Source of the DNA: Desulfobacteraceae bacterium
Lineage (GTDB): Bacteria; Desulfobacterota; Desulfobacteria; Desulfobacterales; ETH-SRB1
Assembly (NCBI GenBank): GCA_014237365.1
Contig: JABZFQ010000077.1
Location: forward strand, 1-34,729
Length of the DNA stretch: 34,729 nucleotides
Direction: 5' to 3'
Position 1 is the first letter of the stretch; each line of letters opens with the position of its first letter. A model generated the notes under the pieces. That model was not told the origin of the DNA. It was given only the letters and a program-made list of their open reading frames with translations, and did no database searches. Positions 2,049-23,457 of this stretch are shown one piece after another. A program made the translations under genes and the position numbers.

Positions 2049-3305
2049 GTGAGCGGTATAAGCCATAAAAAAAATTTGGTGGCCGTTACAGGGATTGGGA
2101 TGATCTGTCCCCTTGGAATCAAAACAAGTGAATGCTGGAAAAATATGATTGCAGGAAAATCAGGCGTTAGGAGGATTACTCGATTTGATGCCAGCAATTG
2201 TTTAACCAAAATCGCCGGAGAGCTTCCGGACAAATACTTTGAAATAGAGAAAAATGTTTTACCACGTAGAGTTTATAAGCGCAGCATTTTGCCTTCACGA
2301 CTTGCTATTATAAGCGCTAAGCAGGCCATTGAAGATGCTAAAATAGAATTAGGTGAGATTGATAAAGGCAGAATTGGAGTTGTAACTGGTTGCGGAGGAT
2401 CCGGTTTTGGCGATCAGATAGTATACGGGGACCCGACAAGAAAGAAATTTGCATTTTCTCATGAGATGTTAAATGCTCTGTCTGCCTGCATAAGCATTGA
2501 GTTCGGTTTTAAGGGCCCATCCTTTAATATAGCAACAGCCTGTGCATCAGGGGCTTTTGCTGTTGGAATGGGTTATGATTATGTAAAACAATATGGAGAA
2601 TTGTGTGTCGTGGTCGGAGTTGATACCATGCTTGCGAAGGAAACCATTGATGGATTTAACCAGCTAATGGCTCTAGCCGAACTTAATGAATATCCCGAAA
2701 AAGCCAGTCGACCTTTTGACAGGAAGAGAAGCGGATTTGTCATTTCTGAAGGCGTATGCGCTCTTGTGCTGGAATCCTATGATCAAGCCATACAAAGGCA
2801 AGCAAGGATATATGCGCTTATGCCGGGTTATGCGGTTACTGCCGAAGCTTTCAACATTATAGCTCCTGAATCTGAAGGAAAGGAGATGGCAAGGACCATG
2901 GAGTTAGCCCTGCGACATGCTGAAATACCAAAGAAAAAAATCGGCTATATAAATGCTCATGGCACTTCGACCTTGCACAATGACCGTGCGGAGACAAAAG
3001 CAATCAAGAGGCTTTTTGGTAATAATGCATATAAAATCCCTGTTAGTTCGCAAAAATCAATGATTGGTCATTCCATAGGCGCAGCAGGAGCTATTGAGTT
3101 TGCAGTAACAGCTCTTACTTTGCATCATCAGGAAATTACTCCTACTATAAATTATGAAGAACCTGATCCACAATGCGATCTTGATTATGTGCCTAACAAA
3201 GCCAGAAAGGTTTGCTCTCTTGAAGCTGCGATTACCAATTCATTTGGCTTTGGAGGCCAGAATGCTACTATTGTGCTTGAGAAATACCATGGGTATATGG
3301 AATGA
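2049..3305 (+). CDS. beta-ketoacyl-ACP synthase, FabF (KAS II) type, KS1
   Basis: Condensing enzyme expected to elongate an acyl chain by decarboxylative Claisen condensation on an ACP. At 418 aa it has the usual FabF length. The catalytic triad is intact: Cys165 in ATACASGAF, His304 in INAHGTSTLHND and His341 in KSMIGHSIGAAG. The C-terminal FGFGGQNAT is also typical. The GTG start is preceded at good spacing by AAAGGAAAGG. It is the first gene of the plus-strand cluster, 54 bases before a KAS III-like gene. It closely resembles KS2 at 5898 (shared VTGIGMICPLGI, RITxFDA and PDPxCDLxYVPNK blocks), suggesting duplication. The substrate is unknown; primary fatty acid synthesis is less likely given the neighbours. 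Confidence 0.93.
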   Translation: MSGISHKKNLVAVTGIGMICPLGIKTSECWKNMIAGKSGVRRITRFDASNCLTKIAGELPDKYFEIEKNVLPRRVYKRSILPSRLAIISAKQAIEDAKIELGEIDKGRIGVVTGCGGSGFGDQIVYGDPTRKKFAFSHEMLNALSACISIEFGFKGPSFNIATACASGAFAVGMGYDYVKQYGELCVVVGVDTMLAKETIDGFNQLMALAELNEYPEKASRPFDRKRSGFVISEGVCALVLESYDQAIQRQARIYALMPGYAVTAEAFNIIAPESEGKEMARTMELALRHAEIPKKKIGYINAHGTSTLHNDRAETKAIKRLFGNNAYKIPVSSQKSMIGHSIGAAGAIEFAVTALTLHHQEITPTINYEEPDPQCDLDYVPNKARKVCSLEAAITNSFGFGGQNATIVLEKYHGYME

Positions 3306-3359: not shown

Positions 3360-4472
3360 GTGGAAAGCAAAATAAAAGGCAAAGATGTTTATATCGCTGG
3401 AATAGGTTCATTCTCGCCGGGTGATCCGGTTCCATTTGACAATATAGAAGACGTATTGGGGGAAATCACAGATGCGCCCAAGAAGGTTCTTAAGCGCATA
3501 GATCGTATGAGGCCTATCATGAAGGAAATGTTAGGCATAGAATATTCCTATTACGCCCTGGATCCAAAAACTCGACAGCAAACCGAAACAAATGTTTCTA
3601 TGGCTGTTAAGTCTGCAAAAAAAGCGCTGAAAGTTGCCGGAATGGATACTTCAGAAATTGATCTAATCGTTTATGCCGGCATACTCTACGATTGCATGTG
3701 TCCTCCATCAAGCGTGCTGGTTCAGGATGCTCTTAACATTCCATACTGTGCGGAGATGTCAATTCATTCCAATTGTACTTCGATTTATAAAGCACTTCAG
3801 GTTGCAACCGATTTGATTGCCAACGGCCGGTATAAAAATGCTCTTCTTGTCAGTCCTCAGATGTCTTCGACGTTTTTACGGGCTGAGTATTTTAACCAAA
3901 AAGCAATTACTGAGGAACAGGCTGTTTTACGCTGGTTTCTAAGTGATGGAGCCGCCGCTCTTGTTCTTACTTCAAAAAAGCCGGACAAGATTCGACTAAA
4001 AGTGGTGGACACATATCTGGAATCGGTTGGCATGGGCATTAAACCCTCCATGCAAGTGCTTGTCGGCTCTTCGCACTGGAATCTTCCGGATATTTACGAA
4101 CATGGATGGCACCATCTAACCCAGGATCTTACGACCGTTGCCAAATTAGCTCCTAAGCTTTTTGAGAATGGAATAAAAACGATGATTGAGAAAACAAATC
4201 TTGATGTTTCTAAGGTAAAATGCTTTTTTGCGAATATTCCCACTAAACATCTCATGGATATTACTGTTAAGAGATTGAGAAAGCATTGGTATTCTGATTT
4301 ATCCTTCTATACAAAGTTGAGCACGAGAGGTTATCAGGGAGCCCCGGCCATCATTATTGCTCTTGATGAATACATTAATGAAGAAAAACTAAAACAAGGT
4401 GATCGTATTGTAAGCTTTGTGACAGAATCCAGCAAATGGATGCATGCTGGATTCATTCTGGATCATTGCTGA
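3360..4472 (+). CDS. KAS III (FabH)-like protein with incomplete catalytic triad
   Basis: Thiolase-fold protein of 370 aa related to 3-oxoacyl-ACP synthase III. The nucleophile is present as Cys139 in SIHSNCTSIYKA, and the fold motif FLSDGAAALVL is recognisable. By eye alignment the usual HQAN His falls on Asn292 (FFANIPTKHL) and the usual GNTSA Asn falls on Tyr325 (GYQGAPAIIIAL), so only the Cys of Cys-His-Asn seems kept. That suggests acyl transfer or a specialised condensation without classical decarboxylation. GTG start with AAAAGGAGAG upstream. It lies between KS1 and the 4711 crotonase, probably in one transcript with KS1. A DarB-like role, joining two chains in dialkylresorcinol synthesis, is possible given the DarA-like gene at 11403, but unproven. 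Confidence 0.85.
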   Translation: MESKIKGKDVYIAGIGSFSPGDPVPFDNIEDVLGEITDAPKKVLKRIDRMRPIMKEMLGIEYSYYALDPKTRQQTETNVSMAVKSAKKALKVAGMDTSEIDLIVYAGILYDCMCPPSSVLVQDALNIPYCAEMSIHSNCTSIYKALQVATDLIANGRYKNALLVSPQMSSTFLRAEYFNQKAITEEQAVLRWFLSDGAAALVLTSKKPDKIRLKVVDTYLESVGMGIKPSMQVLVGSSHWNLPDIYEHGWHHLTQDLTTVAKLAPKLFENGIKTMIEKTNLDVSKVKCFFANIPTKHLMDITVKRLRKHWYSDLSFYTKLSTRGYQGAPAIIIALDEYINEEKLKQGDRIVSFVTESSKWMHAGFILDHC

Positions 4473-4620: not shown

Positions 4621-4710
4621 ACACTGAAAAATATCACTAAAGGCTTTCTGTAATTTTTTGGAAAGTTACAAATATTGCATGTGGTTTTAAGCGGTCTTTA
4701 TAGGATGAAA

Positions 4711-5436
4711 ATGTCGCAAAGTAAGTATTTGGAAATATCGACAGAAGGCAGGATCCTTGTCATAACTATTTGTAATCCCCCTAATAATTATCTTTTAAGT
4801 GGCTTTTTTACAGAATTGAGTTTTTGCCGTGAATTAATATTATCCTCAAATATTGATGCCATTATTTTTACGGGCAAGGGCAATGTATTTTCTAAAGGCG
4901 CGGATATAGAAGAAATAAAGTCCAATCCAAATGAGCTGAATCTTAGAACGGTACTTTATGGTAACGAAATCTTTACATTTTTTTCCGGATTAGACAAACC
5001 CGTCATTGCTGCAATCAACGGTCCATGCCTGGGTGGAGGGTTAGAACTGGCATTAGCCTGCCACATAAGACTATGCTCAGAAAAAGCTCGACTCGGTCTG
5101 CCGGAACTTTCTATCGGAGTCATACCCGGATTGGGAGGCATTCAGCGTTTGATTAGGATAGTGGGTGAATCAAAAGCTCTGGAAATGATTTTGCTTGGAG
5201 ATATAATATCTGCTTCCCGTGCCTTGGAATTAAACCTTGTAAGCCGGGTTTTTCCAAAAAAGGAATTTTTTCCCAGAGTTCTGCTGTTTGTAAAAACAAT
5301 ATTGATGGCGCGTCGGGAAGCAGTTACTGAAGTGCTTAAACTGGTTGCCCTGTCACGGCCAAAAAGTGAGGAAAAGAATATCCTTGCTGCAGCCGAAAAG
5401 TTTGCCGGCTTGGTTTCTAAGAGAAAGGCGTATTAG
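4711..5436 (+). CDS. enoyl-CoA hydratase/isomerase family protein (crotonase 1)
   Basis: Crotonase-fold enzyme of about 241 aa, expected to hydrate or dehydrate, or isomerise, an acyl thioester. It shows the oxyanion-hole strands (SKGADI and GPCLGGGLELALAC) and both acid positions of classical hydratases, Glu112 and Glu132 (LPELSIGVIPG). I prefer ATG 4711, which has TAGG about 6 bases upstream; ATG 4705 and TTG 4675 are in frame. The last residues and the stop codon (KRKAY*) lie inside a repeat that recurs at 9901-9965, so the C-terminus may have been trimmed or replaced by that repeat; it is a little short for the family. It sits between a KAS III-like gene and an ACP, suggesting action on ACP- or CoA-bound pathway intermediates. 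Confidence 0.88.
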   Translation: MSQSKYLEISTEGRILVITICNPPNNYLLSGFFTELSFCRELILSSNIDAIIFTGKGNVFSKGADIEEIKSNPNELNLRTVLYGNEIFTFFSGLDKPVIAAINGPCLGGGLELALACHIRLCSEKARLGLPELSIGVIPGLGGIQRLIRIVGESKALEMILLGDIISASRALELNLVSRVFPKKEFFPRVLLFVKTILMARREAVTEVLKLVALSRPKSEEKNILAAAEKFAGLVSKRKAY

Positions 5437-5488: not shown

Positions 5489-5567
5489 GTTATTGCCATG
5501 TGCTATCAGAAGTGTGGTGGCCCTATATTATAGAGTTAATTTTGATCAGAAATTTGGGAGGAAACAG

Positions 5568-5897
5568 GTGAAAATAAAATTAACGGATGAAGACAAAAAA
5601 AAGCTTTTTGAAGATGTAAGACAATTTTTGGCAGATGAATTTGAAAAAGACGTGAGTGAAATCACAAAGGATACCAATATAATTGATGACCTTGGAGGTG
5701 ATTCCATTCTTTTCTTGGAAATGATTGAAGAACTCAAGGAAAAATATAAAATTGATCTGGAAGTGCGCACTATTGGACAGTATATGTTAAAAAATCCTAT
5801 TTACACAGTTGGAGAAACGTTGAATACCATGTTTGAGATCATAGAAAAAGGAGATGAACTGCTTAAGGAAATAGATTCCGAAGAAGGAGAGATATAG
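5568..5897 (+). CDS. acyl carrier protein
   Basis: Acidic four-helix carrier of 109 aa, longer than a standard 75-85 aa ACP because of a charged C-terminal tail (KGDELLKEIDSEEGEI). The phosphopantetheine site is DDLGGDSILFLEM, with Ser46 as attachment residue; GGDSI replaces the common GADSL of fatty-acid ACPs, as in many specialised carriers. The GTG start at 5568 has a very strong GGGAGGAAACAG ahead of it; the frame is open further upstream but has no such site. Its stop codon is followed immediately by the KS2 start, so the two are likely co-translated and the carrier may serve KS2 and KS1. No phosphopantetheinyl transferase gene is in the window. Confidence 0.93.
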   Translation: MKIKLTDEDKKKLFEDVRQFLADEFEKDVSEITKDTNIIDDLGGDSILFLEMIEELKEKYKIDLEVRTIGQYMLKNPIYTVGETLNTMFEIIEKGDELLKEIDSEEGEI

Positions 5898-7148
5898 TTG
5901 ATTTGCAAGAGCAATAATTCGGGTAAAAACATTCCAATAGCTGTAACGGGTATTGGAATGATTTGTCCTCTTGGGATAACGGCTCCCAAATCCTGGGAAA
6001 ATATGCTGCAAGGCAGATCAGGGATACGCAGAATAACCAAGTTCGATGCCTGTGAATGCGCCACCCGAATTGGAGGGCAACTTCCGGAAGAATATTTTGT
6101 GCTGGAAAAAAAAAAGACTTCAAAAAGAATGTTCAAACAGACCGTTCAGACGACTAGAATTATCCGATTGTGTTCTCATGAAGCCTTTAAAGACAGCAAT
6201 ATAGCATTGGATAAGATAGACCCAAACAGATGCGGGGTAATCATTGGCACAAGTGGCTCTAGTGTGCGCGGTCCTCATGATAAAGGCGGACATGGTGCTG
6301 AACGGTTCAAAATAATACGGGAAATGATTAATGCGCTTCCGGCATGGATAAGTTTAGATTACGGATTCAAAGGGCCAAACTTTACTCTTTCAGCGGCTTG
6401 TGCGTCAGGGTCCTATGCAATTGCAAAGGCATGTGATCTAATCAAAAGGAAAGAACTTGATATTGCTATTGCTGGTGGAGTCGACACTCTCTTGACCAAA
6501 AATAACACTATGCGTGGCAATTTTATGAAAGTGCTCTCGGAAAAAAATGATGAACCTGAAAAGGCGATGAGGCCTTTTGATAGAAAAAGAGATGGATGGG
6601 TAATTTCCGATGGGGGTTGTGCAGTTGTTCTTGAATCTTATGAACACGCTATAAAGAGAAATGCCAGAGTTTACGCGTGGGTTGTAGGACATGCAATGTC
6701 ATCGGAATGTTATAGTTTGTATTCTCCTGTCCCATACGGGGAAGGCATGGTTCAAACTATAGAAATGGCTTTGGCAGACGCAAATATTTCCAGGCAAAGG
6801 ATCGGATATGCTAATGCAAATGGGACTTCAACGGTAGTTAATGACTTTTGCGAAACCATGGCTATAAAAAAAGTTTTTGGTAAGCACGCATATAATATGT
6901 TTGTAAGTTCGCAAAAATCCATGCTCGGCCATATGGTTGGAGGGTCCAGCGCTATAGAGTTTGCCATAACTGCGTTAATCTTGAAAACTCAGAAAATCCC
7001 ACCCACTATAAACTATGAATTTCCGGACCCCAAATGCGACCTGAATTATGTTCCGAATAAGATGGTCGACGTCAATGATCTTGAAGTCGCTATCAACAAT
7101 TCTTTTGGGTTTGGAGGACACAATTGTGTCATTGTTATGACAAGATAA
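5898..7148 (+). CDS. FabF-type ketosynthase homologue with His-to-Asn change (KS2)
   Basis: Ketosynthase fold of 416 aa. The nucleophile Cys168 (SAACASGSY) and second His345 (KSMLGHMVGG) are present. The first catalytic His is Asn308: the motif reads YANANGTSTVVND where KS1 has YINAHGTSTLHND, with codon AAT for CAT. In ketosynthases this His helps decarboxylate the malonyl extender; its loss is known from non-elongating KS0 domains of trans-AT polyketide synthases. Here it suggests acyl transfer, chain gating or a non-decarboxylative coupling rather than elongation. TTG start directly after the ACP stop, with GAAGGAGAGA ahead. Close to KS1 in sequence, and possibly its partner in a heterodimer. 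Confidence 0.92.
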   Translation: MICKSNNSGKNIPIAVTGIGMICPLGITAPKSWENMLQGRSGIRRITKFDACECATRIGGQLPEEYFVLEKKKTSKRMFKQTVQTTRIIRLCSHEAFKDSNIALDKIDPNRCGVIIGTSGSSVRGPHDKGGHGAERFKIIREMINALPAWISLDYGFKGPNFTLSAACASGSYAIAKACDLIKRKELDIAIAGGVDTLLTKNNTMRGNFMKVLSEKNDEPEKAMRPFDRKRDGWVISDGGCAVVLESYEHAIKRNARVYAWVVGHAMSSECYSLYSPVPYGEGMVQTIEMALADANISRQRIGYANANGTSTVVNDFCETMAIKKVFGKHAYNMFVSSQKSMLGHMVGGSSAIEFAITALILKTQKIPPTINYEFPDPKCDLNYVPNKMVDVNDLEVAINNSFGFGGHNCVIVMTR

Positions 7149-7159
7149 GGATTACTTCT

Positions 7160-7846
7160 ATGCCTCTTATTCAAATGAAAAAGGTCACAAAAGATTATCG
7201 ATTGGGAGAAACAATAGTACATGCTCTAAGAGGGATCACTATTGAAATTGATGTTGGAGAATTTGTTGCGGTATGGGGCCCGTCAGGATCAGGCAAAACA
7301 ACTTTTTTAAATCTGATTGGTGCTATTGATGAACCTACTTCCGGATACTTTAGTTTCAATGAACGGGAAATTTCAGGGCTCTCTGATGATGAGAAGTCGG
7401 ATTTGCGTAACAAATCAATAGGTTTCATATTCCAGAATTTTAACTTGATTCCGGTTTTAACTGCTTTAGAAAACGTTATGCTGCCGTTACAAATACAAAG
7501 TTTATCAAATGCTGAAGCCAATCAGAGATCCATGTATAGACTGGAACAGGTAGGTCTTTCCGACTTTGTTAAACATAGACCTGATAAACTGTCAGGGGGT
7601 CAACGACAACGAGTATGCATTTCCAGGGCTTTGGTTACAAATCCTTCGCTGGTGATCGCAGATGAGCCTACGGCAAATCTGGATTCAGATACGGCCATGA
7701 AAATTCTTGAACTGATGAGAGATTTAAACAACAATGAAAAGACAACCTTTATCTTTTCTACTCATGACCAGAGGTTACTTGGCAAAATGAATCGGCTTGT
7801 TCGTATGGTAGATGGTGTGATTATAAATGAAGAGGATCATGTATGA
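7160..7846 (+). CDS. ABC transporter ATP-binding protein, LolD/MacB type
   Basis: ATPase subunit of 228 aa powering the permease encoded next. Visible motifs: Walker A GPSGSGKTT (40-48), Q-loop FQNFNLIP, signature LSGGQRQR (144-151), Walker B LVIADEPT (164-171), D-loop NLDSD and H-loop His202 (STHD). Such subunits pair with four-helix permeases that extract lipids or lipoproteins or drive tripartite efflux. I chose ATG 7160 (MPLIQMKKV) because the family starts there; it follows an AGG at 7148-7150 and starts 12 bases after KS2 ends. It overlaps the permease start by ATGA, so the two are coupled. Context suggests export of the cluster product. Confidence 0.95.
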   Translation: MPLIQMKKVTKDYRLGETIVHALRGITIEIDVGEFVAVWGPSGSGKTTFLNLIGAIDEPTSGYFSFNEREISGLSDDEKSDLRNKSIGFIFQNFNLIPVLTALENVMLPLQIQSLSNAEANQRSMYRLEQVGLSDFVKHRPDKLSGGQRQRVCISRALVTNPSLVIADEPTANLDSDTAMKILELMRDLNNNEKTTFIFSTHDQRLLGKMNRLVRMVDGVIINEEDHV

Positions 7847-9090
7847 CAGCCTGGATTAAGATTGGATTGAGGAACATCGTCAAGAATCTACGCCGTTCAG
7901 TCATTACTGCGTTGGCTATTGCTTTAGGCTTTGCTGCTGTAAACCTTTTTGCCGGGTTTACCAACTACATGTACACGGGAAACCGCGATATAGCGATTTA
8001 CGGAAAATGCGGCGGGCATCTAACGATTTTCAGGAAAGATTTTTTAGAAAAAGGTCGGTTGAATCCGGCTCAATACCTGCTGTCTCCTGAGGAAATTAGA
8101 GATGTCAATGCAATATGCCAGGATAACCCACACGTAATGCTGGTGACACCACAATTAAGAATAACCGGGCTCGCCAGCAATGGCAGCATTTCAACCATTT
8201 TTATTGCCCAGGGGATTGTCCCATCAGCAAAACGTGTGTTTTTTAGCAGAATGAATGCACCGAAAATCGGCAAAATATTTGAGGGCCGGGAACTGGAGAA
8301 TGATAAAAGCTACGGTGTAGCTATGACTAAAGGCTTGGCTCGCCTGCTTGATTTGAAAGTAGGTTCCTATGCTGTAGCTTTTACTAATACAATATACGGC
8401 CAAATGAATGCCCTTGATATGGAGGTTTTTCAATTATTAGATGCCGCTTCTGATGAAATGAATGACAAAATAATGCAGGTGCCACTTGCTTTTGCCCGGA
8501 CGCTTTATGATACGGATGGTGCTGATAAATTGGCTATACTTCTTGACGATACTAAATATACCGAATCTATTCGGGATCAATTGCAGACGGCCTTTTCGCA
8601 AAGAGGACTGGACCTGGAGGCCAAAACATGGGAAGAAATGAGTGAATGGTATAGAAAAGTTAAAATCATGTTTGACGTAATCTTTGCCTTTTTGTTTAGT
8701 ATTGTTTTTATCATTGTGGTAATGAGCGTAATAAATACTATGAGCATGGTCGTTGTGGAAAGGACCAGAGAGATTGGGACTTTGAGGGCTTTGGGCCTCA
8801 GGCGCAGAGGAGTTATGTCTTTATTTGCAGTTGAGACCAGTCTGCTTGGTGTTTTTGGCACAATCGGAGGTCTTTTTTTAACCTTCATTGGTTGGTGTGC
8901 CGTCGATGTGATCAAACCAACGTGGATTCCTCCAGGCATATCAAGACGTATGGTAATAAGCATTGAGTTTGTTCCCGAATTTATGCTATACAGTTTTATA
9001 TTTTTAATTTTGCTTTGTTTGATAGCTTCTCTTATCCCTGCCAAACGCGCGGCAGGACAAAATGTTGTGGATGCCTTAGGTCATGTATAG
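7843..9090 (+). CDS. ABC transporter permease, FtsX/MacB/LolE family
   Basis: Inner-membrane subunit of 415 aa. One membrane segment near the N-terminus (about 18-38) is followed by a large periplasmic domain and three C-terminal segments (around IFAFLFSIVFIIVVMSVIN, LLGVFGTIGGLFLTFIGW and YSFIFLILLCLIASLIPA), the usual LolC/E-MacB topology. ERTREIGTLRALGLRRRGV is the coupling-helix region of FtsX-type permeases. Its ATG overlaps the stop of the ATPase gene. The LolA-like gene follows 15 bases later, so the trio looks like a dedicated lipid-export path from the inner membrane to a periplasmic carrier. Only one permease gene is present, so the transporter would be a homodimer. Confidence 0.93.
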   Translation: MTAWIKIGLRNIVKNLRRSVITALAIALGFAAVNLFAGFTNYMYTGNRDIAIYGKCGGHLTIFRKDFLEKGRLNPAQYLLSPEEIRDVNAICQDNPHVMLVTPQLRITGLASNGSISTIFIAQGIVPSAKRVFFSRMNAPKIGKIFEGRELENDKSYGVAMTKGLARLLDLKVGSYAVAFTNTIYGQMNALDMEVFQLLDAASDEMNDKIMQVPLAFARTLYDTDGADKLAILLDDTKYTESIRDQLQTAFSQRGLDLEAKTWEEMSEWYRKVKIMFDVIFAFLFSIVFIIVVMSVINTMSMVVVERTREIGTLRALGLRRRGVMSLFAVETSLLGVFGTIGGLFLTFIGWCAVDVIKPTWIPPGISRRMVISIEFVPEFMLYSFIFLILLCLIASLIPAKRAAGQNVVDALGHV

Positions 9091-9105: not shown

Positions 9106-9858
9106 ATGATGAGAAATTGCTTGATCAGTGCTATGATAGTATTGGTAATCAATTTTTGGAGTATACATTACTCCTATGCTGAGCTGATCTCTAAAGAAAT
9201 TCTCCACCGCGCTGATGAGTCAAGGGGTAATTTAGAGGGAGTTAAATGGAGAGTATGTATCAATTCAATTGAGAGTGATCGTCAACAAAAACGAAGTCTC
9301 AATGTGCAAGCAAGGGCTTATGACTTTCTCGGCAGTTTAATTTCGCCTCCTAAGGTAAAAGGACAAAAATTGCTGATGCTTGATCACAGTATGTGGTTTG
9401 TCAAACCCGGTTTGAGAAAATCAGTGCCGGTTTCTCCGAGACAAAAGTTGGTGGGAGGAGCTTCCTACGGAGATATTGCGGCTACCAATTATGCAAATGA
9501 TTATGAACCAACCCCACTAGATGATGAAGCGGTAGATGATGAACTATGTTATGTATTTAATCTTAAGGCGATACACAAAAACGCTACGTACAATTTTATA
9601 AAATATTGGATATCTAAAAATCGGTTAGTGGGAGTAAAGGCTGAATTTTTTACCGTTTCAGGTAAGATGTTTAAAATGGCCAGGTTTGAATACGAAAATG
9701 TTGTAAAGTTAAGAGATGAGCCACGGCCGTTTATTTCGAAAATGGTAATTACTGACGCGTTCATAAATAGTAACGTAACAACTCTGAATTTCAGCGAGCC
9801 TATTCTTGTAAAAGTCCCTGATTCAACATTTAATCTGAATTTACTGATGATGAGGTAA
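9106..9858 (+). CDS. LolA-like outer-membrane lipoprotein-sorting protein
   Basis: 250-aa periplasmic protein with an N-terminal signal peptide (about 1-25, ending YSYA). The block MWFVKPGLRKSVPVSPRQKL followed by GGASYGDIAATNYANDY is characteristic of the LolA-like family annotated as outer membrane lipoprotein-sorting protein, which carries lipids or lipoproteins across the periplasm in an open beta-barrel cradle. GAGGAAAAG precedes the ATG. It is positioned after the ABC pair and before an outer-membrane barrel, giving an inner membrane - periplasm - outer membrane route. Relatives occur in RND/MMPL and aryl polyene loci. The cargo is inferred to be the cluster lipid; a lipoprotein cargo cannot be excluded. 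Confidence 0.88.
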   Translation: MMRNCLISAMIVLVINFWSIHYSYAELISKEILHRADESRGNLEGVKWRVCINSIESDRQQKRSLNVQARAYDFLGSLISPPKVKGQKLLMLDHSMWFVKPGLRKSVPVSPRQKLVGGASYGDIAATNYANDYEPTPLDDEAVDDELCYVFNLKAIHKNATYNFIKYWISKNRLVGVKAEFFTVSGKMFKMARFEYENVVKLRDEPRPFISKMVITDAFINSNVTTLNFSEPILVKVPDSTFNLNLLMMR

Positions 9859-9973: not shown

Positions 9974-11347
9974 ATGCACAAAAATCACTATACAAGAAAG
10001 TTAATTATCTTATTTCCACTTTCATGTATTTTGTTTTTTGTGCCTGCTCTGGCTTTTTCTTCGACTATTTCTTATGCGAACGCTGAATCTAATTCTTTTA
10101 TTTATGATATAGCAAAAGAGGCAAAAGATGGTTTTAATTACCTGTTTAAAACGTTGATTTTTGGAACAACAATGAAACCATCTGATTCCACGCAAAATCC
10201 AAACAATGACTTTCTGGAACTGCCGAGATATACATTTGATTTTGAATTGAGGCCAGACCTTTTCCTGAATTTTCGAAGGGTAACTTTAATAGCTAAACCA
10301 AGAATAAATGTGGAACGTCAATATTGGAACGACGGAAATCGTGATGGGGATAGTTCCACAAAAGATGATTGCTATGTTAATGAATGGATAGCTAGGCTAA
10401 GATTGACTGAAGGCTTATTTGCTTCTTATGGAAGAGAAAACCTTCAGTGGGGAGCCTCCTTCTTATTGTCTCCATCCAATCCTTTTTTTCGGAACAACGG
10501 TCAATCAAATCCTAAATGTGAAGTTCCAGGAATGGATTTTGCGCGTTTTGTGTGGATTCCCAATTCTTCCTGTACAGCCTCACTTATTGCTAATACAGAT
10601 GAGGGACGACAGGAATTTGTCTTAGACGATTTTGAACCGACATATGCTTTAAAGTTAGACTATAACTCATACCAAAAAAACTTTAGTGTGATTGCATCTT
10701 ATAAGGAAGAAGATAGGTTTCAAATAGGCGCTTTTGCCAAATGGACGGTTTCTGATGCTCTAATGTTACATGGAGAAACATCTGTAACTCAAGGAACCAA
10801 CGCTCTATATCCGGTGGAAATCATAACTCCATCAGGATCATCAATTCAAATGATTCCGGTCAAAAAAGACGAAACCAGCCTTGAAGGATTATTGCTTTTA
10901 GGGGGATCCTACACGTTGGAAGCAGGGCCTACTTTGACGCTCGAATATGTATTTAACAGCACTGGATATGACGAAAAAGAAGCAGAACTTTATTATGAAC
11001 TCCGGGATGAAGCTTCCCAGGCTTTCTATTCTCCATATTCCGGAGTGGCAGAGATAGCGCAGCTATTATTAATCCAAACTCTTGATACCAAACTGAAGCT
11101 ACTCAGAAAAAACTATTTTATGCTTCAATATCAACACTCTCAAATACGGGATGTCCTTAATCTAATTTTTCGGTATACCTATAATATAAACGATTATTCA
11201 AGTCACTTCGTATCTATTGTGGAGTATGATGTTGGCGACCATACCCAGCTTTTTTTAATTGGCAATCAGAATTTTGGATCTAAAGATACTGAATTTCGTT
11301 CAATTGTAGAATATAGCTGGATGTTTGGATTAGAATATACTTTTTGA
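9974..11347 (+). CDS. outer-membrane beta-barrel protein of unknown family
   Basis: 457 aa with a clear signal peptide (KLIILFPLSCILFFVPALAF). The rest alternates polar and hydrophobic residues in strand-like stretches and ends with LEYTF, the terminal Phe expected for BAM-inserted barrels. The segment GRENLQWGASFLLSPSNPFF resembles porin-like proteins of the DUF1302 or alginate-export kind, but I cannot assign a family firmly. It follows the ABC and LolA-like genes, so it may place the product in, or pass it through, the outer membrane. The ATG at 9974 lies 8 bases after the hairpin repeat and has no good Shine-Dalgarno. Confidence 0.75.
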   Translation: MHKNHYTRKLIILFPLSCILFFVPALAFSSTISYANAESNSFIYDIAKEAKDGFNYLFKTLIFGTTMKPSDSTQNPNNDFLELPRYTFDFELRPDLFLNFRRVTLIAKPRINVERQYWNDGNRDGDSSTKDDCYVNEWIARLRLTEGLFASYGRENLQWGASFLLSPSNPFFRNNGQSNPKCEVPGMDFARFVWIPNSSCTASLIANTDEGRQEFVLDDFEPTYALKLDYNSYQKNFSVIASYKEEDRFQIGAFAKWTVSDALMLHGETSVTQGTNALYPVEIITPSGSSIQMIPVKKDETSLEGLLLLGGSYTLEAGPTLTLEYVFNSTGYDEKEAELYYELRDEASQAFYSPYSGVAEIAQLLLIQTLDTKLKLLRKNYFMLQYQHSQIRDVLNLIFRYTYNINDYSSHFVSIVEYDVGDHTQLFLIGNQNFGSKDTEFRSIVEYSWMFGLEYTF

Positions 11348-11402: not shown

Positions 11403-12365
11403 ATGAAAAGAATACTAGTTATAAATTACTCACAAACAGGTCAGTTGACAAGTATCGTTAAATCCTTAATATCTCCCCTGAGCAAAAATAAGACTATCGA
11501 AGTTGTCTGGGAAGAATTGGAACCAATTAAGCCATATCCTTTTCCCTGGCCCTTTATTAAATTTTTGGATGTATTTCCTGAATCTGTGTTGATGGATGCG
11601 CCAGAAATGAAGTCCTTTTCATTTGACCCGAACAAAAAGTTTGACTTGATCATATTGTCCTACCAAGTATGGTACCTGTCTCCTTCATTACCTGTTACTG
11701 GCTTTCTTAAATCACCAGAAGCAAGAGTTATGAAGGAGACACCGGTTATTACTGTTATCGGTTGTAGAGATATGTGGTTGATTGCGCAGGAAAAAGTCAA
11801 AAAATGTTTGGAACAAATTAGCGCAAAATTCATTGATAATGTGGTCTTTCTCGATCAGGGTAAAAAAGGCGCCACATTCATAACTACGCCCCGATGGCTG
11901 TTGACAGGTAAAAAAGAAAAATTTTGGAAAATATTTCCCGCAGCCGGTGTAAGCGAAAAGGATATTATGAATGCCGATAGTTTTGGAAATGCAATCTTAA
12001 AAGCTTTGGAGAGTGGAGAAATAGATAGGGGGAATTCTATTCTTAAAGGGTTGGGAGCAGTCAAAGTTAATCCCAATAATATTAAATTCGAACAAGCGGC
12101 TCATTGGCATTTTCTTGTTTGGGCAAAAATTATACAAGCGATCGGAAAACAGGGCCAAATGAAAAGGCTGCCATTTTTGATTTTATTCATTGTTTTTCTC
12201 TCAGGTATGATTTTGATATCATTTCCATTTGCTATTATCTTTAATATATTTATCAATCCTTTTAGAAATGAAGAAATTGCAAAAAAGGTAGAATATTTCG
12301 AACAACCTTCCGGGTCTTCAACAGAAAGATTAGAATCACTGAGCGCAATGAAAGATATAAAATGA
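11403..12365 (+). CDS. DarA-like dialkylresorcinol-condensing (aromatase) family protein
   Basis: 320 aa. The N-terminus has a flavodoxin-like nucleotide-binding start (MKRILVINYSQTGQLTSIVK), then PYPFPWPFIKFLDVFPESV and LIILSYQVWYLSPSLPVTGF, which I recognise as the family annotated dialkylresorcinol condensing enzyme. In dialkylresorcinol and flexirubin pathways DarA acts after the ketosynthase DarB and is thought to oxidise a cyclohexanedione intermediate to the aromatic ring. A hydrophobic segment around residues 253-285 suggests membrane attachment. It is the last gene of the left plus-strand arm and faces the sulfotransferase operon. Together with the KAS III-like gene and ACP it hints at a resorcinol product. 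The family call rests on remembered motifs and is moderately sure. Confidence 0.72.
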   Translation: MKRILVINYSQTGQLTSIVKSLISPLSKNKTIEVVWEELEPIKPYPFPWPFIKFLDVFPESVLMDAPEMKSFSFDPNKKFDLIILSYQVWYLSPSLPVTGFLKSPEARVMKETPVITVIGCRDMWLIAQEKVKKCLEQISAKFIDNVVFLDQGKKGATFITTPRWLLTGKKEKFWKIFPAAGVSEKDIMNADSFGNAILKALESGEIDRGNSILKGLGAVKVNPNNIKFEQAAHWHFLVWAKIIQAIGKQGQMKRLPFLILFIVFLSGMILISFPFAIIFNIFINPFRNEEIAKKVEYFEQPSGSSTERLESLSAMKDIK

Positions 12366-17166: not shown

Positions 17167-18375
17167 GTGATGCATGTTGGTATTGTTGGTACCGGAAAAA
17201 TGGGGACCGCCTTATTAAAACTTCTTAAGTCAACACCATATCATATTAATGTCCTGGCTAGCGGTGCGGATAAAGCGGAAAAGAGCCGGCGAAAATATTT
17301 TAAAAAAATTGAGCGGGAATTCAAACAAGGGGGGATTTCTGAAAAAAAGTACAATAATATCAAAGCAATTCGAAAATTTACTCATAAAATAGAGGATTTG
17401 GCCGGGTGTCAGCTCGTTGTTGAGTCTATTACTGAGGATTTTGAAGCAAAAACATCATTATTCCGAAAGATAGAATCAGTGGTGGATAAAGATGCGATTC
17501 TGGCAACCAATACCTCTAGTATTCCCATCTCGGATTTGGCCGGGAAACTGCGCTATAATAATCGGTTTTGCGGATTACATTTTTTTCACCCTGTTTTTAT
17601 GATGAATTTAGTGGAAATAATAAGAAAAGCCGACACGCAGCCTCGACTAGTTGATTTGATGAAGGACTTTTCTCGACAAATCGGCAAAAAACCGATCGTT
17701 GTTTTTGATGCTCCCGGCTCTGTTCTGAATCTTATTCTTTTTTATTATTATCTGGAGGCTTTTTATATATTGGAGTCAGGGCTTGCTCTTCCATCGGAAA
17801 TTGATAAACTGGCAAAACAATATTTTTATACAGGGCCATGTGAATCAGTGGACACTATTGGCATTGATTTGTTTCTCACCGGCCTGAAAATTCAATCAAG
17901 ACCGGACAGCATCTGTCCTGTTCGATGGACGGATGACCCTTTGCAACAAATAGACTCAGAAAAAAGCGGTGGCAGAGAAGGATTTTATGTTCCTCATTTG
18001 TTTCGCAAATTGATTGCAGAAAACCGTCGTGAAACCGGTGTAGCCAAAAAAGTTTATGATTTTGAAGATAACCCGGAGTTTTATATTGATGAAACAGGCA
18101 TGAGTTCCAGAGTAACTCCTGATACAAGTAAGAAAGAAAAAGATTTAATTGTCAAACGTCTTCTTTACGCTATCTTTAATGGTGCAATTGATGCTGTACA
18201 AAAGGGCAAGTCTTCTATTAAAGAACTTGATATCGGCTTGAAAGAAGTGTTGTGGATGGATCAAGGACCGTTTTCAATGATGAAAAAAATCGGCAGAGAA
18301 AAAGTCCAGGAAAATTTTGATTATTTGATAAGTAATGTGGGAAAACGGTTCACCCAAACAGCATTATCTTTGTAA
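17167..18375 (+). CDS. 3-hydroxyacyl-CoA dehydrogenase
   Basis: 402 aa, NAD-binding Rossmann start VGIVGTGKMGTALL, then ATNTSSIPISDLA (catalytic Ser), LHFFHPVFMMNLVEII (catalytic His and Glu) and FDAPGSVLN with the conserved Asn. This is the HACDH plan of fatty-acid beta-oxidation enzymes, with the C-terminal dimerisation half present (about 185-400). It would interconvert 3-oxoacyl and 3-hydroxyacyl thioesters; no FabG-type ketoreductase is in the cluster, so it may fill that step in the reductive direction. GTG 17167 and ATG 17170 are both possible starts, with AAAGGAG at 17152-17158. It is 38 bases before KS3. Confidence 0.9.
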   Translation: MMHVGIVGTGKMGTALLKLLKSTPYHINVLASGADKAEKSRRKYFKKIEREFKQGGISEKKYNNIKAIRKFTHKIEDLAGCQLVVESITEDFEAKTSLFRKIESVVDKDAILATNTSSIPISDLAGKLRYNNRFCGLHFFHPVFMMNLVEIIRKADTQPRLVDLMKDFSRQIGKKPIVVFDAPGSVLNLILFYYYLEAFYILESGLALPSEIDKLAKQYFYTGPCESVDTIGIDLFLTGLKIQSRPDSICPVRWTDDPLQQIDSEKSGGREGFYVPHLFRKLIAENRRETGVAKKVYDFEDNPEFYIDETGMSSRVTPDTSKKEKDLIVKRLLYAIFNGAIDAVQKGKSSIKELDIGLKEVLWMDQGPFSMMKKIGREKVQENFDYLISNVGKRFTQTALSL

Positions 18376-18412
18376 TTGCATATTTTTTTGCGGAAAGGAC
18401 GAAAGGGAAGTC

Positions 18413-19618
18413 ATGAAAAGAAGAGTAGTGGTGACAGGATTAAATATGATCACTCCACTCGGCCTTAATCTAGAAACTAGCTGGGATAATTTTGTAGCCG
18501 GCAAAAACGGTATCAGTTTGATTTCCCTATTTGATACTTCGAATCACATGACTAAAATTGCAGGGGAACTTTCCAGTGATTTTGAAAATTATTCAAAAAA
18601 ATCATGCAAGAAATACCTATCCAAGAAAATGGGTAGAGCGACCAAAATATGCTATGTATGCGCAAAAGAGGCTGTTGAGAGCAGTGGAATAGATTTTAAG
18701 AACTATGATGCAATGCGATGCAGTGTCATTTTAGGTGCTAATGATACTGGTCATTCAAGAATTTACCATAATAATAAAAACTGGCTCATGAAAACCATGG
18801 TCAATGGGATGGCCGCATGGATATCAATAACCTATAAAATAGAAGGTCCGTGTTTTACAATTGCGACGGCTTGTTCATCTTCTGCTTATGCAATTGGTTA
18901 TGGATATGACCTCATAAGATCTAATATGGCTGATGTGGTTATAGTCGGAGGCGCAGGTTCAATTGTCAATCCCGAACACCTTGAGGGATTTAATGAAGTA
19001 TATGCCCTTTCTACTTCCAGTGACATCCCTGAGAAAGCAAGCCGTCCTTTTTCTATTGACAGAGATGGTTTTGTTCTTGGAGAAGGGGCTGGAATATTAA
19101 TTCTTGAGGATATAAATACGGCTAAAAAACGGGGGGCATATATATATGCAGAAATGATTGGGCATGCTTTAACCAGTGAAGCGTATAACATTATGTCGCC
19201 AAAACGGGATGGTAGCGGGATGGCAAAAACGATGGATCTGGCATTGAAAAAATCTAAAATAAAGAAAGAAGAGGTAGATTACATTAACGCGCACGGCACT
19301 TCCACACCGCATAATGATAGAGTAGAGACATTGGCGATAAAGAAAGTTTTCGGGAAACATGCCTGCGATATACCTGTTTCATCGTCAAAATCAATGATCG
19401 GTCACACAGCAAGCGCATGTGGAGGGATTGAGGCTGTTCTTACAATAATGAGCATAAAAAACGGGATGATAACGCCCACAATTAATTATCATCCGGATCC
19501 GGAATTGGATTTGGATTATGTTCCCAATATAGCAAGAAAACAGAAGATTGATGTAGCGATTTCCAATTCTTTTGCTTTTGGTGGTCATAACGCCACACTG
19601 GTTTTTAAAAAATATTAA
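18413..19618 (+). CDS. beta-ketoacyl-ACP synthase, FabF type (KS3)
   Basis: 401-aa condensing enzyme with full catalytic triad: Cys154 (ATACSSSAY), His294 (INAHGTSTPHND) and His331 (KSMIGHTASACGG). It keeps the PDPELDLDYVPN and FAFGGHNAT blocks shared with KS1 and KS2 but is more distant from them than they are from each other. I chose ATG 18413 (MKRRVVVTGLN) because it aligns with FabF starts and has GAAAGGGAAG ahead; an upstream in-frame GTG at 18335 would overlap the dehydrogenase. It is followed 17 bases later by the acyltransferase-like gene, a usual partner. Confidence 0.93.
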   Translation: MKRRVVVTGLNMITPLGLNLETSWDNFVAGKNGISLISLFDTSNHMTKIAGELSSDFENYSKKSCKKYLSKKMGRATKICYVCAKEAVESSGIDFKNYDAMRCSVILGANDTGHSRIYHNNKNWLMKTMVNGMAAWISITYKIEGPCFTIATACSSSAYAIGYGYDLIRSNMADVVIVGGAGSIVNPEHLEGFNEVYALSTSSDIPEKASRPFSIDRDGFVLGEGAGILILEDINTAKKRGAYIYAEMIGHALTSEAYNIMSPKRDGSGMAKTMDLALKKSKIKKEEVDYINAHGTSTPHNDRVETLAIKKVFGKHACDIPVSSSKSMIGHTASACGGIEAVLTIMSIKNGMITPTINYHPDPELDLDYVPNIARKQKIDVAISNSFAFGGHNATLVFKKY

Positions 19619-19635
19619 TCCGTAATTAAGAGACA

Positions 19636-20559
19636 ATGAAAAAAGAGATTGCAGCTTTTATTTTCCCTGCTTTTGGCAAACCATATACAGGTTTTAAAAA
19701 TAAAGGGCTTGATGAATATCAGGAACGCTTGCGGGACTATTTGTCAACGGCATCGCAACTGGTTTCGATTAACAATATAAAATTTGAACGGGCATGTAAT
19801 GGTATTATTGAAGATGATCTTCACGCCCATTACTCCTGTTACATTAATTCCTGTATTATCTCTGATATATTGAAGGATAGAAATATACATCCTCAATATG
19901 CAGTTCCATTTAGTATGGGCTTATATGCGGCTCTTTATTATACATCTTCTGTTTCATTTGAAAATTTATTGCTTTTTATGCATAATCAATTAGCATCTGC
20001 ATTAAATACTCTTAATGATGTTCAATATGGAATGGTATCTATTGTTGGTTTGCCTTTTCATGAGGTTGAAGAATTGATTAGAAACAAGGAAATGGAGGTA
20101 GAAGTTGTTGATGCTGTCAATGAACTTGTTCAAGTAGTGGCAGGCAAGCGCGTAGAGCTCGAAAAATTAATGCTCATCGCAAAAGAAAATGGCAGTTCTC
20201 ATGCCAGAATGTTGCCCGTGTCATTGCCTTATCATTCAAGCTACATGAAAAAAATAAAAACAATAGTTGAAGATTTGTTGCTTCAGATTGAGATACTAAC
20301 TCCTGAATATCCCATTATTTCGAATAGTAATCAAAAAGTCTTAACAACAAAGCAAGAAATAAGAAACGAATTAGCTAACAATATTTCTGGTACAGTGCAT
20401 TGGTTAAATACTATGAATAAAATGCATGAACTTGGTATCAATGTGCTAATTGAATGTGGACTCAGCAATGCTTTATGCAAATTGGTCAAACTGTTTAATA
20501 GTGATTTTCAGGTTTACCATCCCAGAAAATTTTCTAAATTATTTCGTTCCATTGCCTGA
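19636..20559 (+). CDS. acyltransferase-like protein (FabD fold), altered malonyl-binding site
   Basis: 307 aa resembling malonyl-CoA:ACP transacylase. The nucleophile motif, usually GHSLG, reads PFSMGLYAALY with Ser93; the catalytic His is His200 in MLPVSLPYHSSYM. The region that normally carries the Arg binding the malonyl carboxylate (RGxxM block before GAMAAI) is FENLLLFMHNQLASALNTLN with no Arg between residues 108 and 132. This suggests a non-malonyl acyl group, or a hydrolase/editing role. It directly follows KS3 in the same transcript. ATG start with AAGAGAC ahead. The fold call is good; the substrate is open. Confidence 0.82.
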   Translation: MKKEIAAFIFPAFGKPYTGFKNKGLDEYQERLRDYLSTASQLVSINNIKFERACNGIIEDDLHAHYSCYINSCIISDILKDRNIHPQYAVPFSMGLYAALYYTSSVSFENLLLFMHNQLASALNTLNDVQYGMVSIVGLPFHEVEELIRNKEMEVEVVDAVNELVQVVAGKRVELEKLMLIAKENGSSHARMLPVSLPYHSSYMKKIKTIVEDLLLQIEILTPEYPIISNSNQKVLTTKQEIRNELANNISGTVHWLNTMNKMHELGINVLIECGLSNALCKLVKLFNSDFQVYHPRKFSKLFRSIA

Positions 20560-20620
20560 AAAAAGTGCAGCTTAGGGCTCAGAGCTGCTTTCCTCTGCAA
20601 TATCAAGTTTGAAACAACCT

Positions 20621-21334
20621 ATGGAAAATTCTCATCTTATTCGCATATGGAATAAAGGTTCCATTGCCTATATCCAACTCAATCGTCCTGAGAAGGCTAA
20701 TGCCTATAATGAGGCAATGCTCGACACCTTGGCCGGCACCTTGGAGAATATAGCAATCGATGCCGAGGTACGTGTGTTAATTATTTCCGGTGCAGGCAAT
20801 CAATCTTTTTGTGCTGGAGCGGATATTCATGAGATCCGTCAAAGAAATTACGCTGATGCATTGAATTTAAAAAGCGCAAAAGTATTTGATAAAATAGCTC
20901 TTTTCCCCCAAATTACTCTTGCGGCCATTAATGGAGCTGCTGTTGGAGGAGGATTAGAGCTTGCTCTGGCATGCGATATCCGGATAGCTGTTGAAAATGC
21001 AACCTTTTTTTTTCCCGAAACAAAACTTGGATTAATACCGGCAGCCGGCGGAACCCGCAGATTGCCTAAGATCGTTGGCATTCCGCGCGCTAAGGAGCTC
21101 ATTCTCGGAGGGCGGGTTTGGAATGTAAATGATGCCATGCGCTGGGGACTGGTCAACGAAGTCGTACAGTGTGAAGATCTATTGGCTCAAGCTCAAAAAT
21201 GGGGTGAGGAAATCGCTCAAAGGGATCCGGTAGCGTTACAATTAGCCAAAAAGTCACTTGATTTCCAATCAGAAAATGGATTGGCTTCAAGTTTTGAACT
21301 CGTTTCCGAGGCATTGTTGTATCAGTTAAAATGA
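20621..21334 (+). CDS. enoyl-CoA hydratase/isomerase family protein (crotonase 2)
   Basis: About 237 aa, the most canonical of the three crotonases here. It has oxyanion-hole strands CAGADI and GAAVGGGLELALACD and both hydratase acids, Glu113 and Glu133 (FPETKLGLIPAAGGTRRL). Expected to hydrate 2-enoyl thioesters or dehydrate 3-hydroxyacyl ones, working with the 17167 dehydrogenase and the FabI-like reductase. The start is ATG 20621 or in-frame TTG 20609; neither has a clear ribosome site. It may equally be a DpgB/DpgD-type partner of the type III synthase encoded next, 250 bases downstream. Confidence 0.88.
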   Translation: MENSHLIRIWNKGSIAYIQLNRPEKANAYNEAMLDTLAGTLENIAIDAEVRVLIISGAGNQSFCAGADIHEIRQRNYADALNLKSAKVFDKIALFPQITLAAINGAAVGGGLELALACDIRIAVENATFFFPETKLGLIPAAGGTRRLPKIVGIPRAKELILGGRVWNVNDAMRWGLVNEVVQCEDLLAQAQKWGEEIAQRDPVALQLAKKSLDFQSENGLASSFELVSEALLYQLK

Positions 21335-21412
21335 GAAAGCAATACCTGCGGAAATCAAAAAAATAAACCTTGGTTCAAAACAGTATGATTATCATCGCCT
21401 ACTTAGAAAAGT

Positions 21413-21540
21413 TATTATTGACCGAGCCCTTAGACCGAAGTTCCCCCCTCGGTCTAATAATATCAGGCACTTAACTATGCTGTAGTCATGTAACAGGCAT
21501 AATGATTTCAAATAGTTACGAGCCCCTGGAGGAACTTCGG
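21413..21540 (+). promoter_or_regulatory. leader with two competing hairpins before the type III PKS gene
   Basis: TATTATTGACCGAG (21413-21426) pairs with CTCGGTCTAATAATA (21448-21462). The loop sequence CCGAAGTTCC (21435-21444) pairs instead with GGAACTTCGG (21531-21540), with flanking CTTAG/CTAAG extension. Both pairings cannot fully form together. It could be an attenuator-like leader or the remains of another mobile repeat; no anti-terminator T-run is obvious. Confidence 0.45.
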
Positions 21541-21584
21541 CTTAGATTTACCAATCTAATTTTCCTTTGCAATGAGGTTACATA

Positions 21585-22667
21585 ATGTCAATAAATAAGG
21601 AATCGACTTTTATTTCCCCGGGAAAAAGACCAAGGATTGTATCAATAGGGACAGCTAATCCTCCATGTAAATATACTCAGGAAGAAGTTGCTCAACTCTT
21701 TGGGGAAAAAAATCCAAGAATACTCCAGTTTTTCCGCAGCGGTCATATAAAAACCAGGCATCTCTACCTGCCCGAGCTTGTTAATGGAATAATACCTGAG
21801 GAATCAAATCAACAACTGATAGATAAGCATTTCAACGGAGCGCTTGAACTTGGTTCACTGGCTATTAACGAAAGTTTGGCCCCACTTGGACTGTCTCCTT
21901 ACGATATTGATTTTTTTTGCTGTCTCAGCACTACAGGATTTCTTTGTCCTGGAATTACTGCTTATATTGCCGAAGCCATGAAATTTCGTAATAATGTGTA
22001 CCGGGCGGATATTCTGGGAATGGGTTGTAATGCCGGTTTAAACGGGCTGCAGCACGTCACCGCACTTACCCATGTCAATCCTGGGAAATTGGGACTTCTG
22101 CTGTGTGTTGAGATATGTTCTGCTGCCTATGTATATAATGATAATTTGTATACGGCAGTTGTGAATTCACTGTTTGGTGATGGTGTGTCTGCTGCGCTTG
22201 TACGGCAGAATGATTCAGATACCTGGGAGAAGGGACCTTGCGTCGTAGATTTTGAATCTCATATTATTATGGAAGCTATTGGGGCAATGCGATTTGAGCT
22301 GGATAATAATAAGTTGTCATTTTATCTGGACAAGGATGTTCCATATGTTATTGGCGCTAACGTAGAAAAGCCAATTAATCGTTTACTGGGACGTCATAAT
22401 CTTAAACGCCGTGATATACATCACTGGATCGTACATTCAGGTGGAAAAAAGGTCATTGATGCCATTGAATATAATCTTGGACTTACCGATTATAATATGC
22501 GTCACACATTAAGTGTTTTGAAAAATTACGGTAATTTGTCATCTGCATCGTTCCTTTTTTCTTACAAGGAACTTAAGCGGGAAGGTATTATAAAGCAGGG
22601 AGATTTAGGGGTTTCCATAACAATGGGACCTGGTATAACAATCGAAACAGCTTTACTAACATGGTAA
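21585..22667 (+). CDS. type III polyketide synthase, DpgA-like (3,5-dihydroxyphenylacetyl-CoA synthase family)
   Basis: 360-aa chalcone-synthase-fold enzyme. The triad is intact: Cys148 (GMGCNAGLNGLQ), His284 (WIVHSGGKKVIDAIEYNLGL) and Asn317 (LKNYGNLSSASFLF). The GMGCNAGLNG surround of the Cys is of DpgA type rather than plant CHS type. DpgA condenses four malonyl-CoA into 3,5-dihydroxyphenylacetyl-CoA in vancomycin-type pathways, helped by crotonase-fold DpgB and DpgD. Here one crotonase gene precedes and one follows it, supporting that reading. It needs no ACP and could supply an aromatic starter for the ketosynthases. ATG with GCAATGAGG ahead. Exact ring product is inferred. Confidence 0.85.
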   Translation: MSINKESTFISPGKRPRIVSIGTANPPCKYTQEEVAQLFGEKNPRILQFFRSGHIKTRHLYLPELVNGIIPEESNQQLIDKHFNGALELGSLAINESLAPLGLSPYDIDFFCCLSTTGFLCPGITAYIAEAMKFRNNVYRADILGMGCNAGLNGLQHVTALTHVNPGKLGLLLCVEICSAAYVYNDNLYTAVVNSLFGDGVSAALVRQNDSDTWEKGPCVVDFESHIIMEAIGAMRFELDNNKLSFYLDKDVPYVIGANVEKPINRLLGRHNLKRRDIHHWIVHSGGKKVIDAIEYNLGLTDYNMRHTLSVLKNYGNLSSASFLFSYKELKREGIIKQGDLGVSITMGPGITIETALLTW

Positions 22668-22704
22668 AATCTAAGGTTAAACTCTCATTAAGGGGATCAT
22701 TATT

Positions 22705-23457
22705 ATGAATCACTATAACACTTTAAAGGTAGAAAAAGAAGGCAATGTTGTAACGGTCTATCTCAACCGTCCTGACACGAAAAATTCCATAAATATGCAG
22801 ATGGTCAATGACTTGACTAATCTTATGGACATTGTTGAAGATGCCAATGATGTAGCAGTATTAGTACTTCGCGGCAGCAATGATGTTTTCTGTTCAGGTA
22901 TAGATTTCCACGATTTTTCTCTTGATAAGGAACAGAATATCTATGGGTTGCAAAAATGGGAGAAAATGTGTCGCCGACTGGAACGTCTTAATAAGTTTAC
23001 AGTCGCTGCCGTTGAAGGCAAGTGCATTGGCGGCGGATTTCAACTTGTATTGCTTTGCGATACCAGGATTGCGGAAAAACGGGCTCAGTTCTGCTTTAAT
23101 GAAGTCAAACTGGGATTTCTGCCGGGAATGGCTACATTCCGTTTGCCTAAGTATATCGGTCTTGGCCGGGCAAAAAATCTTATTCTGACCGGCAGCGCTA
23201 TTAAAGCAGATAAAGCGTTAGATTGGGGGTTGCTGGACAAAGTTTGCGAGCAAACAATTTTTTCGGAAACCCTGAAAGAAACAATTGACTGTTTACTGCC
23301 GTTTCATCCGGTTGCTCTTGAAATGGGCAGGCGACTACTCAACGAGTGTTACGCTGACACCTACGAAAATTACATCGGTCATTTCCTGGCCGCACAAAAT
23401 CGAGCTATCAATTCAGAAGCTTTTAAAAAACTCATATCGCTTAATGTATCACACTGA
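22705..23457 (+). CDS. enoyl-CoA hydratase/isomerase family protein (crotonase 3), DpgB/DpgD-like
   Basis: 250-aa crotonase-fold protein 37 bases after the DpgA-like gene and thus probably its partner. Oxyanion-hole strands CSGIDF and GKCIGGGFQLVLLCD are present. The first hydratase acid is Gln113 (GGGFQL in place of GGGxEL), while Glu133 (NEVKLGFLPG) is kept; one-acid crotonases are usually isomerases or have other roles. In the dihydroxyphenylglycine pathway DpgB boosts DpgA and DpgD acts as a hydratase; this protein may do one of these jobs. ATG with AAGGGGAT ahead. It is the last gene of the lipid/polyketide cluster before uvrC. Confidence 0.87.
   Translation: MNHYNTLKVEKEGNVVTVYLNRPDTKNSINMQMVNDLTNLMDIVEDANDVAVLVLRGSNDVFCSGIDFHDFSLDKEQNIYGLQKWEKMCRRLERLNKFTVAAVEGKCIGGGFQLVLLCDTRIAEKRAQFCFNEVKLGFLPGMATFRLPKYIGLGRAKNLILTGSAIKADKALDWGLLDKVCEQTIFSETLKETIDCLLPFHPVALEMGRRLLNECYADTYENYIGHFLAAQNRAINSEAFKKLISLNVSH

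Follow-up and report, generated by a model that had tools for sequence, protein, structure and literature searches.

Ketosynthases with known and proposed inactive partners

The KS/CLF enzymes consist of an active ketosynthase (KS) and an inactive KS devoid of catalytic residues (PMC12664062). In the actinorhodin KS/CLF (1TQY), an intact KS and a FabF-fold paralogue share one operon with an ACP nearby; the CLF has exchanged its Cys for Gln (VAEQAGG), and both of its His motifs are gone (FADGAGVP, KTTTGRL). Aryl polyene clusters encode a comparable pair, for a Gram-negative reducing pathway that also has ACP, KR and DH genes of its own: the KS ApeO has a catalytically dead partner, ApeC, a single thiolase fold of about half the size, and residues of both subunits lie at the end of the ApeO-ApeC cavity (PMC8358021). 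AmcF-AmcG, the KS-CYF pair of cispentacin biosynthesis, is a heterodimer of a KS and a protein without functional motifs (PMC10698177), and AmcG is without the secondary-structure elements of CLFs. Additionally, trans-AT PKSs contain KS0 domains, which have lost a catalytic His but keep the Cys and for which a chain-transfer role has been proposed (PMC9582728; PMC4661987).

The window analysed here, a stretch of 34,729 nucleotides from a Desulfobacteraceae bacterium (contig JABZFQ010000077.1), encodes an intact ketosynthase, KS1, and a paralogue with an altered active site, KS2, which most likely serves as KSbeta in a condensing enzyme of the type II style and probably forms a heterodimer with KS1. 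The pair resembles actinorhodin KS/CLF in combining an intact KS with a FabF-fold paralogue of reduced catalytic equipment in one operon with an ACP gene. However, KS2 retains Cys, Lys and the second His, its sequence is closer to FabF than to CLFs, and its gene is separated from KS1 by those for KAS III, enoyl-CoA hydratase (ECH) and ACP. The ApeO-ApeC arrangement is also similar, yet KS2, a full-length protein, is much less degenerate than ApeC, and the putative ketoreductase and dehydratase of the window are of the 3-hydroxyacyl-CoA dehydrogenase (HCDH) and crotonase types. With AmcF-AmcG the locus shares a KS beside a partner without functional motifs, although the pairing of KS2 is presumptive and KS2 is a recognisable FabF. 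The window protein has lost the same His as KS0 and kept the Cys, but it is a discrete protein of 416 amino acids with an intact paralogue, whereas KS0 is a type I megasynthase domain.

Genomic setting and distribution of the cluster

The biosynthetic cluster occupies about 21.8 kb between uvrB and uvrC (window 1702-23472). In two congeners (G002, G002:C42, and G003, G003:C37; L171 and L172), uvrB adjoins uvrC with about 140 and about 60 bases between them, so the cluster is best read as a genomic insertion. A search of viral contigs gave no match, and plasmid records yielded only matches below 60% identity.

On the forward strand, KS1 (2049-3305; INAHGTST), the proposed catalytic KSalpha, is followed by a KAS III/StlD-DarB-like protein (3360-4472), an ECH family protein that is a possible dehydratase (4675-5436), an acyl carrier protein with a GGDSILFLE phosphopantetheine motif (5493-5897), and KS2 (5898-7148), whose TTG start codon abuts the ACP stop codon. 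Downstream on the same strand are a LolD-like ABC ATPase (7124-7846), a LolC/E-like FtsX permease (7843-9090), a LolA-like outer-membrane lipoprotein-sorting protein (9106-9858), and a conserved protein that is syntenic in other clusters and beta-barrel-like by eye, with no family match (9974-11347). These are followed, again on the forward strand, by an HCDH family protein and possible ketoreductase (17167-18375), the counterpart of which lies directly 3' of KS2-AT in most other clusters; KS3, a separate intact ketosynthase lineage (18335-19618; INAHGTST); a malonyltransferase-like AT resembling FabD/MdcH (19636-20559); and DpgA, the 3,5-dihydroxyphenylacetyl-CoA synthase, which reaches the NCBIfam cut-off (21585-22667). 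Sulfotransferases and an O-methyltransferase are also encoded. The product is possibly an outer-membrane polyketide or resorcinolic lipid, a guess from the neighbouring genes.

Two further features of the cluster were observed. The set KS3-AT-ECH-DpgA-ECH (window 18335-23457) is conserved in L135 (G524) and L157 (Thiococcus pfennigii), so that DpgA and crotonases accompany a discrete KS and AT both in Thermodesulfobacteriota and in a purple sulfur bacterium. The conserved protein at 11403-12365, with counterparts at L038:1252-2184 and L135:17819-18784, matched no Pfam or NCBIfam family above cut-off; by eye, we take it to resemble the dialkylresorcinol enzyme DarA.

Related clusters were identified with the KAS III-like gene as a specific marker, supplemented by KS searches. 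They are rare and patchy: the marker search covered several hundred genomes of the phylum, presumably Thermodesulfobacteriota, and found KAS III in eight of them; seven of these have KS2, while G243 carries KAS III without it. Seven KS2 genes, two of them near-identical, were recovered by synteny, namely that of the window and those of G051 (L038/L041, a deltaproteobacterial MAG), Syntrophobacteraceae CG2_30_61_12 (L042/G481), L134 (G596), L126 (G322), L127 (G462) and L156 (G524). The common gene order is KS1, KAS III, ECH, ACP and KS2, mostly followed by AT and a gene of the HCDH family; the first five genes keep this order across several families, with KS2 directly behind the ACP. KS2 and an intact KS1 stand in the same operon in every KS2-bearing cluster, with KAS III, ECH and ACP between them. 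G524 is rearranged, with KS1, ECH, ACP and KS2 together and KAS III, KS3, AT and DpgA farther along the contig, and the window differs in that AT and HCDH have moved beside KS3. Thiococcus pfennigii possesses KS1 and the KAS III gene, and no KS2 was found in its genome record; KS1-type enzymes can thus exist without KS2.

Catalytic residues of the KS2 family

Codon 308 of KS2, at the catalytic His position, is AAT (6819-6821) within the local sequence RIGYANANGTSTVVND, so that the protein reads YANANGTSTVVND, with the motif NANGTST where KS1 and KS3 have NAHGTST. Re-reading of the open reading frame and codon agreed with the initial annotation, which had described this replacement together with retained Cys168 and His345. 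KS2 keeps Cys168 (SAACASGS; codon at 6399-6401), Lys340 (SSQKSM) and His345 (LGH), and the window protein also has the gate Phe405. A misread CAT codon is very unlikely, since Asn is also found in independent assemblies; Asn308 recurs in three orthologues of other genera (G051, L042/G481 and L134/G596). None of the syntenic orthologues carries the His that would have pointed to a private mutation, and both a sequencing error and such a mutation were rejected on the strength of independent orthologues without His. As to whether Asn is fixed, His is absent from all seven proteins, but the residue in its place varies (N, N, N, N, A, A, S).

Five positions (Cys168, His308, Lys340, His345 and Phe405) were compared across the family. 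The KS2 pattern is CNKHF in the window and G051, SNKHR in L042, SNKHI in L134, AAQHI in L126 and L127, and NSKHF in L156; CHKHF is found in each of the eight KS1s, the Thiococcus pfennigii protein among them. The second His is therefore retained in every KS2, and the Cys has been replaced in five of the seven (by Ser, Ser, Ala, Ala and Asn), never by Gln. Among the 155 distinct KS-like open reading frames from all loci collected, 138 have Cys and His, and the combination of Cys with Asn occurs in the window KS2 and its G051 orthologue only. Given these 155, Asn308 of KS2 is above chance.

Two other altered ketosynthases were encountered. An independent set of KS genes with degenerate KS neighbours (L051, L053, L055 and L058) shows Cys replaced by Gly with His retained, the reverse order of loss. 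In G524, a further ketosynthase adjoining KS1 (L156:13216-14475) has Gln for His (INCQGTSS) and retains the Cys; it belongs to an unrelated lineage on a long branch.

With Asn at position 308, KS2 departs from the Cys-His-His-Lys active site of an elongating FabF (KAS II), and its 388.0 bits fall below the NCBIfam FabF equivalog cut-off of 493.75, although the cut-off alone says little because intact KS1 also lies below it (420.6 bits). It is very unlikely that KS2 continues to elongate chains as a homodimer, with Asn308, or His345 together with Asn, standing in for the His, and serves as a second condensing enzyme with another substrate range. In favour of this reading, Asn can take part in decarboxylation, as in the Cys-His-Asn triad of KAS III and type III enzymes, and the window protein, with its FabF-like fold, has kept four of the five active-site positions examined. 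However, the Asn of KAS III occupies the second His position while the first is still His, whereas in KS2 it is the first that has changed, and the orthologues lose Cys and Lys too. Nor does KS2 have the make-up of a KSQ decarboxylase, in which Cys becomes Gln and both His are retained, as here the Cys is retained and a His is gone. A malonyl-ACP decarboxylase (Mad) reading was dropped, Mad proteins having a hot-dog fold (PMC8666670).

Acyl transfer and the KAS III-like neighbour

The initial annotation had proposed that KS2 transfers or couples acyl chains in the manner of KS0. As a conserved role this proposal failed: acyl transfer cannot be the shared function of the family, since five of the seven proteins lack the nucleophile, and it was rejected on that ground. 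What survives of the idea concerns the branch of the window and G051, where Cys168, Lys340, His345 and the GFGG gate are intact and the replaced His is exactly that of the HGTGT-type motif missing from KS0. There the KS2 Cys would be acylated from the ACP and the chain passed on to another ACP, KAS III or KS3, without elongation owing to the missing decarboxylation His. This is an unlikely reading even for that branch, as orthologues encoded at this place in the operon have replaced the Cys by Ser, Ala or Asn, so that the shared function does without it, and known KS0s are domains of type I modular synthases rather than discrete paralogues of an intact KS.

The adjoining KAS III-like protein fits a transfer role better than KS2 does. 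Relative to StlD (5gk0), it retains the Cys (Cys139), has FANIP against FLPHY (His to Asn), and has GYQG against GNTG (Asn to Tyr); these three states hold in nine of nine homologues (the window, L039, L042, L044, L126, L127, L128, L134 and L135), and an ESSKWM motif is strict in the KAS III/DarB-like homologues. From these residues, the KAS III-like protein appears to be the better acyl-transfer candidate and would be non-condensing.

A further reading for the window and G051, also quite unlikely, pairs KS1 and KS2 as an asymmetric KS/KS0 heterodimer with two working cysteines, in which KS1 elongates and KS2 holds or relays an acyl group, the Cys-less relatives being pure CLF-like partners. 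If true, the two-cysteine KS1-KS2 pair would be a discrete two-site shuttle.

Phylogeny and selection

The mixture-model tree joins KS1 and KS2 as sisters (100/98) and recovers both KS2 (100/100) and KS1 (93/88) as clades; KS3 forms a separate clade (100/99), and the three jointly stand apart from FabF (97/94). The simplest history is one old duplication giving rise to KS1 and KS2, with His replaced by Asn on the KS2 stem and Cys lost once or twice thereafter; a single clade of Cys-less KS2s was not rejected in the topology test (p 0.505). The Thiococcus KS1, which has no adjoining KS2, may branch before the duplication, a placement that was likewise not rejected (p 0.148).

KS2 branches are longer than KS1 branches, and the catalytic loops of KS2 are relaxed, as might be seen in a decaying, non-functional copy of KS1. 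That KS2 is such a copy is hardly credible, as KS2 is a full-length open frame at the same operon place in seven genomes, and a KS2-specific motif is better conserved than the corresponding part of KS1. Between the close relatives G322 and G462, whose KS2s are without Cys, His and Lys, dN/dS is about 0.22, the same as for KS1; KS2 is still under purifying selection after losing these residues. On the intact frames and this selection test, a pseudogene was rejected.

Mirror-image conservation of KS1 and KS2

Conservation was expressed as mean pairwise identity across six non-redundant clusters. In the catalytic loops (nucleophile, His, Lys/His and GFGG), identity is 0.80-0.88 for KS1 and 0.45-0.58 for KS2, and in segment 137-157 the relation is inverted, with 0.38 for KS1 and 0.71 for KS2. 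Ten of the 33 columns invariant in KS2 only fall inside one 20-column window (p = 1.5e-4, window scan); the segment was picked after viewing the alignment, and this p value takes account of position but not of all the choices involved. The core of the segment is the motif F-[KR]-I-I-R-[DE]-M at 137-143, which in the window is F137-M143 (FKIIREM; 6306-6326) and in L156 has Tyr instead of Phe.

Lys138 of KS2 lies 30 residues before the Cys, the same spacing as Phe133 of FabF, and from this spacing we take its segment to be the equivalent pocket-bottom/dimer position. In FabF, Phe133 lines the pocket of the partner subunit, and both subunits of a KS homodimer line one another's pocket with this segment. 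In the homodimeric FabFs, the catalytic loops and the pocket-bottom segment are both conserved. A heterodimer with one active site predicts the drift of the segment in KS1 and its retention in KS2: the segment of the active subunit faces a dead pocket and may drift, and that of the silent subunit faces a live pocket and must stay. The second set of KS genes with degenerate neighbours (L051, L053, L055 and L058) showed the same direction, more weakly.

A probable KSbeta-like partner of KS1

The suggestion that KS2 forms a KS/partner heterodimer without the usual change of Cys to Gln gained indirect support from the paired operon, the sister-clade tree, the disappearance of catalytic residues while purifying selection persists, and the mirror-image conservation. 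The heterodimer, the tunnel role and the loss of catalysis in KS2 are inferred from sequence. KS1 and KS2 would have arisen by one old duplication within an operon with its own ACP. KS1, whose Cys-His-Lys-His set is intact in all clusters, would carry out acyl loading, malonyl-ACP decarboxylation and condensation, while KS2 would complete the dimer, its F-[KR]-I-I-R-[DE]-M segment providing the wall or floor of the KS1 acyl tunnel and setting substrate fit or chain length. The catalytic residues of KS2 would decay because its own catalytic centre is no longer used: His first, with Asn in the ancestor, then Cys, and Lys in one lineage. The window KS2 would represent an early stage of this decay. 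Although it probably acts like a CLF, its Cys sets it apart from a canonical one.

The predicted KS2 monomer has a full KS fold (pLDDT 80, pTM 0.88) and in a fold search was closest to FabF subunits, not CLFs, and structure prediction by itself therefore cannot discriminate between the readings. To annotation, a KSbeta-like subunit can still look like FabF, and the signature, relaxed catalytic loops combined with conservation of the pocket-bottom segment, could help to find unannotated KS/partner pairs outside actinobacteria. What has mostly been seen of the origin of CLFs from ordinary ketosynthases is the end state, with neither Cys nor His left. The KS2 family preserves stages of such a course, with His lost and Cys kept, then Cys replaced by Ser, Ala or Asn, and then Lys lost, all beside an unchanged KS1, and makes the order of catalytic-residue loss testable.
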